In this document: positions 725 through 26,751 of the stretch, piece after piece
Position numbering within the stretch: position 1 is the stretch's first letter
How the letters are laid out: each line of letters begins with the position of its first letter
Assembly: GCF_017875395.1 (NCBI RefSeq)
Contig: NZ_JAGGMO010000001.1
Span: forward strand, 372,001-436,000
DNA: 64,000 bases
Source: Methanococcus voltae
GTDB taxonomy: Archaea; AGJL01; Methanococci; Methanococcales; Methanococcaceae
Direction of reading: 5' to 3'
Position numbers and translations under genes: made by a program
The notes under the pieces: model-generated
The model's input: the letters and a program-made list of their open reading frames with translations, nothing else
Told to the model about the DNA's origin: nothing
The model's database searches: none

Positions 725-810
725 ACTGTAGTCAGTATTTTGTTTCCGGGTTCAGCATTCGCTACATTCCCTACGGGATTACTCCCGTTGATGTGAGAAC
801 CTTTTCGGTT
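725..810 (-). ncRNA. Structured 5' leader or small RNA upstream of rpl15e
   Basis: A GC-rich island in AT-rich DNA. Four consecutive hairpins can be drawn on the minus strand: AACC/GGTT (798-801 with 807-810), a perfect 6-bp stem with a 4-nt loop at 773-788, an interrupted stem with GGG/CCC outside and AGC/GCT inside (748-771), and ACTG/CAGT (725-736) just before the ribosome binding site. In AT-rich archaeal genomes GC-rich islands are a known sign of structured RNA. It could be an autoregulatory leader of rpl15e or an independent small RNA; strand and function are inferred. Confidence 0.4.
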
Positions 811-18892: not shown

Positions 18893-19435
18893 ATGGATTA
18901 TTACGTATTTTTACTATTGAGCTCAGTATGGTATATAATACCTGCATATATTGCAAATGCTATGGCTTGTGTTTTTGGAGGGGGAACTCCGTTAGATGGA
19001 GGCAAAAACTTTGTTGATGGTCGTAGATTAATAGGAAATGGGGTAACAATTAAGGGAACAATTTCTGGAATAACTTGTGGAGTTATTGGCTCAATACTCC
19101 AATATTTTGTTGGCAATTACTTTAATTTCGATTGGATGATGTTTTTAAATGCTGGATTAACACAATATGTCATATTAGGGTTACTTTTATCATCTGGTGC
19201 CTTATTTGGAGACATGTTTGGAAGTTTTGTGAAAAGAAGGTTTAATATTTCACAGGGCGGTTCTGCACCCTTATGGGACCAATTAACATTTATAGTATTT
19301 GCCCTAATATTTGGTTACTTTTACATACCTGTTTCAGTGAACATGGCTATATTATTAATACTACTCTCGCCAATTGTTCATTTGGTATCAAATATAATTG
19401 CGTATAAATTAGGAATTAAAAAAGTATGGTGGTAA
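18893..19435 (+). CDS. carS: CDP-archaeol synthase (CarS)
   Basis: 180 residues with five hydrophobic segments, of the CarS/DUF46 family. Conserved polar loops are GGGTPLDGGKNFVDGRRLIGNG (first cytoplasmic loop, about 29-50) and GDMFGSFVKRR (about 104-114) followed by SQGGSAPLWDQL. CarS activates unsaturated archaetidic acid with CTP to give CDP-archaeol, the precursor of polar ether lipids. ATG 18893 follows GAGGGATTTT. The ACT-domain gene begins 6 bp downstream. Confidence 0.93.
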   Translation: MDYYVFLLLSSVWYIIPAYIANAMACVFGGGTPLDGGKNFVDGRRLIGNGVTIKGTISGITCGVIGSILQYFVGNYFNFDWMMFLNAGLTQYVILGLLLSSGALFGDMFGSFVKRRFNISQGGSAPLWDQLTFIVFALIFGYFYIPVSVNMAILLILLSPIVHLVSNIIAYKLGIKKVWW

Positions 19436-21188: not shown

Positions 21189-21278
21189 GGCACGGGGTGC
21201 TGGACTTGGTAGTTCAGGGCGGACTTCAGATCCGTCGAGTTCCATGGGAATTCGGGGTTCGATTCCCCCCCTATGCCG
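21189..21278 (+). tRNA. tRNA-Sec (anticodon TCA)
   Basis: A 90-nt tRNA. The acceptor arm GGCACGGGG pairs with the 3' strand ending in TATGCC plus discriminator G; the anticodon arm GGACTTCAGATCC presents TCA; a long variable arm (GAGTTCC/GGAATTC) and the T-arm GGGGTTCGATTCCCC follow. The long acceptor, long extra arm and TCA anticodon identify selenocysteine tRNA. CCA is not encoded; a T-run after the gene may end transcription. It serves the UGA codons of hdrA, vhuD, vhuU and fwdB further along this window. Confidence 0.95.
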
Positions 21279-23317: not shown

Positions 23318-23610
23318 AATTTTCCTCAAAATAACAATTAATTGCAAGTAATTACAAATATAATAATATATGTTAAAAACATTGATTAACCATATAATTA
23401 AAAACTTTTAGATGTAAATTAGACGTAATTGGACATAATTAGATATAAATTAGATATAACTCTAATAGATCATATATACATATTTTTAATATAATTATCT
23501 ATTTAAAATAACAATAAGCACATTTAAAATCGTATTACCATACACTTAATAGCATATGATTAATTAACTAATATAAATCAAATAATTCTCAAAAAAACAG
23601 CTTTATTAAT

Positions 23611-23724
23611 ATGAGGGGTGGGAATGGGATAGGAGATAAAAATATCTCCCACACGGTGTTATCAGTAGTGATGTGGGGGTATGAGGGGGTTAAAAATATC
23701 ACTACTATCCCACACCGTGCATAA
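23611..23724. ncRNA. GC-rich tandem inverted-repeat element, probable structured RNA
   Basis: A sharp GC-rich island within the 603-bp gap between marker 8 and the next gene. It holds GGAGATA/TATCTCC (a 7-bp hairpin, AAAA loop, 23632-23649), AGTAGTGAT/ATCACTACT (23664-23672 with 23698-23706), and outside it CACGGTG/CACCGTG (23652-23658 with 23713-23719), a nested long hairpin. Two related halves are visible: each has a G-rich 5' side, TAAAAATATC, then CCCACAC. No open frame fits. Strand and function are unknown; the flanks 23318-23610 and 23725-23920 are AT-rich with nothing else clear. Confidence 0.55.
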
Positions 23725-23920
23725 CATTAGTATAATGTACTTGTATATATAATTTACTATGAATCAAAAATGTATGTGTATATCTTATGTTACGTTACGT
23801 TATACGCCACATAATATAAAATACTCAATTTAATTAAGAAATATACTATTTATATAATTAATAATAAATTAATAATAAATTAGTAAAAATTAATAAATAA
23901 TAAGACTTTAGGGTGGGATT

Positions 23921-24397
23921 GTGAAGTATATAACAACTTTATTGGCAGTTAAAGATATCAACATTTCCAAGAAATTCTATGAAAAACTTTTTAATCAACA
24001 TGTCATCTATGATTTGGGTAAAAATGTAACATTTGATGGAGGATTTGCACTACAAGAAGATTTTCCATGGCTCATAGATATTCCTGCTAATTCATTGATT
24101 AAAAAATCAAATAATATGGAATTATATTTTGAAGTAGATGATTTTGACGAATTTTTAAAAAAACTAGAAGAATATGAAAAATATGAGAAAATAGTGTATG
24201 TAAATAAACCTAAAAAACATGAATGGAAACAAAGAGTTGTTCGTATTTATGACCCTGATTTTCATATCATAGAAATAGGAGAATCAATGGAGGTTATTGC
24301 AAAACGCTATCTTAATGAAGGATATTCTATCGAAAAAACTGCAGAAATTATCCAACATCCAATTGAATTTGTAAAAATGGTTAACGAAAAACAATAA
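23921..24397 (+). CDS. Glyoxalase/VOC superfamily protein
   Basis: 158 residues. The first about 120 form a vicinal-oxygen-chelate fold (AVKDINISKKFYEKLF at the start, DPDFHIIEIGES as the closing strand with a likely metal-binding His/Glu). The C-terminal 40 residues are a small helical tail. The substrate is unknown; family members include glyoxalase, dioxygenases and resistance proteins. GTG 23921 follows GGTGGGATT. It stands alone, beside a GC-rich element, and resembles proteins more common in Firmicutes, so acquisition by transfer is possible but unproven. Confidence 0.78.
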   Translation: MKYITTLLAVKDINISKKFYEKLFNQHVIYDLGKNVTFDGGFALQEDFPWLIDIPANSLIKKSNNMELYFEVDDFDEFLKKLEEYEKYEKIVYVNKPKKHEWKQRVVRIYDPDFHIIEIGESMEVIAKRYLNEGYSIEKTAEIIQHPIEFVKMVNEKQ

Positions 24398-24771: not shown

Positions 24772-26751
24772 ATGAGTGACCCCAAAGTGGGGGTTTTCGT
24801 TTGTTACTGTGGTTCTAACATCAACGGTGCAGTGGATTGTGAAGCAGTTAAAGATTTCGCTTCCAAACTCGATGGAGTAGTAGTTGCTGATACATACCCA
24901 TTTATGTGTGCTGACCCTGGACAAAATCTTATTAAAGATGCAATTAAAGAAAAAGGGTTAGACAGAATTGTGGTAGCAGCATGTACTCCTAAGATCCACG
25001 AACCTACGTTTAGGGCTTGTTTATCAGAAGCAGGCATATCCCCATATTATTTAGAGTTTGTGAACATCAGAGAGCATGACGCTTTTGTTCATATGAATGA
25101 CGTAAAAGCTGCAACAGATAAAGCTAAAGAGTTAATTGCAGCAGGTATTGCTAGAGCTAAAAAACTTGAGGACGTACCTCAAAAAATTGTGGATGTAGAT
25201 AAGAGCTGTATGGTTATAGGTGCAGGTATTGCAGGTATCCAATCTGCATTAGACCTTGCCGACCAAGGCTTTAAAGTATATCTCGTAGATAAAGACGAGT
25301 CAATCGGCGGAAGAATGGCACAATTAGCTAAAACTTTCCCAACCGATGACTGTGCGATGTGAATTCTCGCACCGAAAATGGTTTCGGTGGCTAACCACCC
25401 GAACGTGGAATTATTAACTTACACAGAAGTTAAAGATATTGATGGATACATTGGTAACTTCAATGTAAAACTTGAGAAAAAAGCAAGATACATTGATGAA
25501 ATTACCTGTACCGGTTGCGGTGCTTGTGCTGCAGTATGTCCTATAGAGATACCTAACGAATTTGATTTAGGTTTAGGTACCAGAAAAGCGATATACGTTC
25601 CATTCCCACAAGCTGTACCTTTAGTATATACTATTGATATGGAACACTGTATTAACTGTGAACTTTGTTCAAAAGTATGTGCTGCAAAAGCTGTAAGATA
25701 CGACCAAAAACCTGAAGAAGTAGAAATTAAGGTTGGTACAATTATCACAGCTACAGGGTACGATGAATTTGATGCTACACAAAAAGAAGAATATGGTTAC
25801 GGAGTTTATGACAACGTTATCACAACCTTAGAAATTGAAAGGATGATTAACCCTGCTGGACCTACCGGTGGTCATGAAATCAGACCAAGTGACGGTAAAC
25901 ACCCTCACAGAACCGTATTTGTACAATGTGTTGGTTCAAGAGACGAAAAAGTCGGCAACCCATACTGTTCAAGAGTATGCTGTATGTTCGCACTTAAAAA
26001 CGCTCAGTTAATGAAAATGCACGACCCTAATGCAGAAGTATACATTTGCTACATGGATATAAGGGCATTTGGTAAAGGATACGAAGAATACTATAAAAGA
26101 GCACAAGAACAGTTCGGTGTTAGATTCGTTAGAGGAAGACCTGCAGCTGTTATTGAAGACCCTGAAACTAAAAACTTAACCGTTAGAGTTGAAGATACAT
26201 TATTAGGCGAAATCTTAGAGATTGATGCTGACTTAGTTGTATTATCAGCTGGTTTAGTGGGTAAAAAAGAAACAAAAGACCTAGCTAAAATGATGGGCGT
26301 TGATGTAGGGCCAGAAGGATTCTTTAAGGAGTCACACCCTAAATTAGCTCCAGTTAACACAAAAGTTGACGGTATCGCAATTGCAGGAGTTGCACAAGGA
26401 CCTAAGGATATTCCAGACACAGTAGCACAAGCAAAAGGTGCTGCAAGTGCTGTGGCTATTCCAATGTCACAAGGTAGCTTCAAAATTGAAATGATTAGAG
26501 CAACTGTTGACGAAGATGTATGTGGTGGATGTAAAGTATGTGCAATAATGTGCCCATATAATGCGATTACATACGAGGAAAAAGAAGGTCATTTGGTAGC
26601 TATAACAGACGACGTTGCATGTAAAGGTTGTGGAGCATGTGCAGGTGCATGTCCAAGTGGTGCTATGCAGTTAAGATACTACAGAGACTCACAAATCTTA
26701 GATTCAATTGACGGAATGTTAGATGCAGCTAATATGATTAATAACGAATAA
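24772..26751 (+). CDS. hdrA: Heterodisulfide reductase subunit A, selenoprotein (Sec197)
   Basis: 659 residues when the in-frame TGA at 25360-25362 is read as selenocysteine (context DDCAM-U-ILAPKM); the same frame continues with strong HdrA similarity on both sides, so this is not a frameshift. Features: FAD-binding VIGAGIAG near 147, cluster motifs CTGCGACAAVC (about 246), CINCELCSKVC (about 293), CGGCKVCAIMC (584) and CKGCGACAGAC (617). HdrA carries the bifurcating FAD that splits H2 electrons between CoM-S-S-CoB and ferredoxin. vhuD follows after 220 bp. GGAGGTGAATCC precedes the ATG. Confidence 0.95.

Follow-up and report, generated by a model that had tools for sequence, protein, structure and literature searches.

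A candidate small structured non-coding RNA gene divergent from hdrA and conserved in Methanococcales

Introduction

No gene covers a GC-rich island at positions 23611 to 23724 of a 64,000-nucleotide stretch of Methanococcus voltae DNA (the window), which raises the question of what the island encodes. The earlier note on this DNA had described an RNA-like element built of inverted repeats. We find the island as described, with the outer arms CACGGTG/CACCGTG and the exact inner arms AGTAGTGAT/ATCACTACT, and the reading as an RNA element without a covering gene is borne out. The element is almost certainly the gene of a small structured non-coding RNA on the minus strand. This reading is supported by its strand, promoter and structure, by its occurrence in single copy, by its conservation across the order and by its position next to hdrA.

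Results

The GC content of the island is 46% over 110 bp, compared with 30% for the window, and only 0.7% of window positions reach 46%. Folding of the minus strand gave -36.1 kcal/mol (z = -5.0), and none of 200 shuffles was as good; the plus-strand fold was weaker (z = -2.5). The longest frames starting with ATG had 0 to 42 codons, and no reading frame was conserved among the homologues. A plus-strand RNA was rejected, given its weaker fold and the lack of a consistent TATA box, and the strand adopted in the earlier note had to be revised, as promoter and fold both put the RNA on the minus strand. The G-runs noted previously do exist on the plus strand; since this is the template strand, the RNA has C-runs instead and cannot form the G-quadruplex that had been suggested.

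A TATA box (TTATATATA) was identified at 23744 to 23752 on the minus strand, 32 nt ahead of the first helix (P1). Every one of the 24 genomes that carry the RNA has a TATA box starting at -30 to -33 relative to P1, and in 23 of the 24 it has at least 7 of 8 matches, compared with 2.5% of background windows. The sequence CGAAAA often precedes it, as expected of a BRE plus TATA box. When a TATA box at a fixed distance was sought on the opposite strand of the same genomes, none was found. The element thus has its own promoter at the right distance, as a structured non-coding RNA gene should.

The predicted RNA, of approximately 120 to 130 nt, spans positions 23591 to 23720 of the minus strand; its 5' end, near 23720, is deduced from the distance to the TATA box and its 3' end from a U-run. 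This run of seven U (23591 to 23597, minus strand), a likely terminator, would close a transcript of approximately 130 nt in the window. A similar T-run directly follows a C-rich 3' motif of the CCCCUCCCCC type in Methanocaldococcaceae, at approximately 105 to 117 nt. Other Methanococcaceae have a CCCCUCCCC motif at approximately 130 to 210 nt, suggesting that the transcript there may be longer.

The architecture of the RNA consists of helix P1, a GGGA/AUA internal loop, helix P2 with a C-rich apical loop, usually a hairpin P3, and a C-rich tail, all on the minus strand. P1 pairs GCACGGUGU (23712 to 23720) with ACACCGUGU (23651 to 23659), and 7 of its 10 pairs show changes on both sides. In the internal loop, the GGGA side (23708 to 23711) is invariant in all aligned sequences, and the AUA side (23660 to 23662) reads AUG in G002, AGG in G003 and AUA elsewhere. 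P2, supported by both covariation and fold, pairs UAGUAGUGAU (23698 to 23707) with AUCACUACUG (23663 to 23672) and carries the apical loop CCCCCUCAUACCCCC (23673 to 23697), in or at the edge of which every homologue has a run of at least five C. P3 (GGGAGAUAUUUUUAUCUCCU, 23631 to 23650) is missing from some Methanocaldococcaceae homologues. The tail AUCCCAUUCCCACCCC (23615 to 23630) hardly varies among 14 Methanococcaceae; the C-rich 3' motif of Methanocaldococcaceae is another one, ACACCCCUCCCCCAC or a similar sequence. The outer and inner helices and the short 3' hairpin coexist in one fold, rather than forming the mutually exclusive folds proposed before. As for the tandem duplication suggested by TAAAAATATC, this sequence is indeed present twice, but the repeat is a loop sequence common only to the nearest relatives, G005 and G006, so that a tandem duplication is not supported.

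Comparison of the homologues showed that standard pairs fill 98.8% of 408 cells in an alignment fitted to the covariance model, which leans towards structure. Changes on both sides were found in 11 of 18 pairs, none of 500 shuffles reached the real values, and control structures slid by 1 to 3 columns were only 23 to 63% paired. RNAalifold, run on an earlier MAFFT alignment of 14 sequences, also recovered these helices and showed 6 pairs to be compensated. The helices are thus conserved through compensatory changes, as in a structured non-coding RNA gene: pairing is kept, G-U pairs included, while the sequence changes. The internal loop and the C-rich segments are conserved more strongly than the helix sequences. 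Since variation in the helices is compensated, whereas the internal loop and C-runs are retained, the latter are the likely working parts of the RNA. A pseudoknot between GUGGGA and UCCCAC was inspected and rejected for want of covariation support.

A hairpin with the P2 core, a C-rich loop and CUGAAAACA was also observed at G002:C1:519820-519917, G004:C1:1028340-1028410 and L107 3411-3502 (minus strand). The gene that it directly follows gave no Pfam match when checked in G002, where a LysR-type regulator gene is the divergent neighbour of that gene.

When 22 Methanococcaceae genomes were searched at the nucleotide level, 14 yielded clear homologues; the aligned sequences begin with GCACGGTG or a variant and carry the C-rich tail. 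A covariance model built from them (R1) revealed further copies in Methanocaldococcaceae, including one in G025, which we take to be M. jannaschii (G025:C1:1129104-1129195, minus strand). A second model built from both families (R2) found one strong copy each in 24 of 36 Methanococci genomes, with E values of approximately 2e-11 or better, and no match in the other 12. This type of search, proposed in the earlier note, shows the element to be conserved through Methanococcales, and as genomes with the element have one clear copy each, the mobile element that the note had considered is excluded. A strict pattern scan of 84,980 species genomes, whose pattern hit only four records, returned no homologue outside Methanococcales; the widest covariance-model search covered the same 36 Methanococci genomes.

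The twelve genomes without a match indicate that the RNA is dispensable. At least eight of them keep a Sec-type HdrA, and in seven that were checked at hdrA, by upstream sequence or open reading frame layout, no element was present. On the HdrA tree, the losses of the RNA need approximately three changes, and G001, which lacks the RNA, also lacks a Sec-type hdrA. Together, these observations indicate that the RNA is probably ancestral to Methanococcales and was lost several times. All 20 RNA-bearing genomes with a completeness of at least 90% have an FdhA match. Nevertheless, co-occurrence with formate dehydrogenase was rejected, as RNA-less G001 and G034, and weakly G024, also have FdhA matches; genome reduction may explain the pattern. 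G001, a Methanococcus, keeps a Sec-type formate dehydrogenase, and its HdrA match is only of the Cys type.

The constant neighbour of the element is hdrA, a key gene of methanogenesis: the RNA is divergent from a Sec-type hdrA wherever this gene falls on the examined stretch. In the window, hdrA occupies 24772 to 26751 on the plus strand, with an in-frame TGA (selenocysteine) at 25360 to 25362. A glyoxalase-family gene (23921 to 24397) separates it from the RNA in this genome (G000), as does a homologue in G005; the other relatives examined are without it. The gene on the 3' side varies among carS, methanogenesis marker 8 and a predicted membrane protein, and in G028 no same-strand open reading frame of at least 100 amino acids lies within 1.5 kb downstream. 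In the window, the next gene on the RNA strand is methanogenesis marker 8, and carS lies away from the element at 18893 to 19435. This variability suggests an independent transcription unit rather than a cis leader of one gene. The window also holds a selenocysteine tRNA gene at 21189 to 21277, approximately 2.3 kb from the RNA, and an Rfam match to the eL15-Euryarchaeota ribosomal protein leader at 744 to 787 (minus strand).

Discussion

By analogy with archaeal sRNAs, we give roughly an even chance to the RNA regulating mRNAs in trans by base pairing, without claiming any particular target. A stable non-coding RNA of approximately 120 to 130 nt would be made from its own archaeal minus-strand promoter and ended at the U-run. 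P1 and P2 would hold a rigid hairpin presenting the C-rich apical loop, the C-rich 3' tail would stay single-stranded, and loop and tail could pair with the G-rich ribosome-binding sites of mRNAs, a mode of action favoured by the same analogy. The loop and tail are candidate seed regions: they are conserved and unpaired in the predicted fold, and the C-runs are unpaired in every homologue. Sequences complementary to the tail, the loop or the 3' motif showed no clear enrichment over a reversed-pattern control. Hits to long complementary targets were approximately equal in number to those of the reversed pattern, and any excess for the tail pattern was slight. In most genomes, shuffled sequences did at least as well as the real ones in forming duplexes with the hdrA leader. 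Some Methanocaldococcaceae ribosome-binding sites do fit the 3' motif, such as GGGGGAGGGG before a predicted membrane protein (G025:C1:355775). At this site and at G025:C1:50833, the core of the Methanocaldococcaceae 3' C-rich motif is matched by exactly complementary ribosome-binding sites, GGGGGAGGGGTATG.

The main rival to base pairing is a protein-binding role, as a scaffold, decoy or component of a small RNP, in which the GGGA/AUA internal loop and the C-runs would be protein sites rather than base-pairing sites. We regard it as somewhat unlikely, although the stronger conservation of precisely these parts is in its favour, as is the search for complementary targets, from which none stood out. 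The weakly related hairpin in a 3' UTR of three Methanococcus genomes (G002, G003 and G004), which shares the P2 core and the C-rich loop with the RNA, is also what a shared protein site predicts. However, Hfq, the obvious candidate, does not track the RNA: it is absent from most Methanococcaceae that carry it, at odds with an Hfq-dependent sRNA. The internal loop, by inspection, does not fit a kink-turn either. H/ACA guide RNAs, marked by a pseudouridylation pocket with a 3' ACA, and C/D guide RNAs, marked by boxes C and D with a kink-turn, were rejected, as the internal loop is only 4x3 with no GA/AG tandem by inspection, and there is no Rfam match.

Readings that tie the element to a neighbouring gene are less probable. 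A leader that acts in cis on the next same-strand gene, as a riboswitch or attenuator, would suit the many Methanococcaceae in which carS follows on the same strand approximately 200 to 350 nt downstream, with a second C-rich motif before a T-run in between; the inconstant downstream gene, and the distance of carS in the window, make this quite improbable. It is very improbable that the element instead serves the hdrA-vhu operon as a DNA operator or enhancer, with incidental inverted repeats. It does adjoin hdrA wherever both are seen, but compensatory changes that preserve RNA pairing, its own promoter and the intervening glyoxalase-family gene speak against it. We give virtually no credence to a selenocysteine insertion element (SECIS). 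The archaeal SECIS, found in the 3' UTR of selenoprotein mRNAs, has a GAA/A internal loop, 2 to 3 G-C pairs and a loop of 4 to 8 nt (PMC9622424). Like it, the element adjoins a selenoprotein gene and places an asymmetric internal loop between a basal helix, here of approximately 10 bp, and a second helix; unlike it, the element has GGGA/AUA, a long upper helix (7 to 10 bp), its own promoter and a position on the strand opposite to the divergent hdrA. The Sec-type HdrA genomes that lack the element argue in the same direction.

Returning to regulation in trans, a more elaborate version, which we consider unlikely, is that a new, order-specific regulatory RNA links the translation of other mRNAs to the expression of the hdrA-vhu methanogenesis operon, or to the selenium state that this operon reports. 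A protein would then recognize the region of P2 and the internal loop, which is also present in the weak 3' UTR relative beside the LysR-type regulator gene.

In Methanosarcina, trans-acting sRNAs such as sRNA154 and sRNA162 are intergenic and structured and have their own promoters. The element resembles them in having unpaired segments that could meet ribosome-binding sites, but it belongs to a different order, and the target search found none here; we know of no sequence relation between them. Klein, Misulovin and Eddy (2002) and Schattner (2002) reportedly found non-coding RNAs by their high GC content in AT-rich hyperthermophiles. A review puts the numbers of RNAs that the two screens proposed for M. 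jannaschii at 5 and 18 (PMC3432209). The G025 homologue would qualify by its high GC content in an AT-rich genome, so the 2002 screens may already have seen this RNA. For M. maripaludis, Term-seq gave 38 intergenic non-coding RNAs (PMC7515710), among which a homologue beside hdrA would be expected if expressed. In the literature searched, we found no paper describing the RNA, and no family in Rfam 15 reaches its gathering cut-off for the element. By annotation, the RNA is a new family of a known kind, the structured non-coding RNA gene.

The regulatory RNAs of Methanococcales are little known, even though methanogenesis has a genetic model in M. maripaludis. This work yields a covariance model for a family absent from Rfam. 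Deletion and pull-down work on this candidate can begin directly, given its covariation-backed structure, its promoter and predicted ends, and its constant position next to heterodisulfide reductase.
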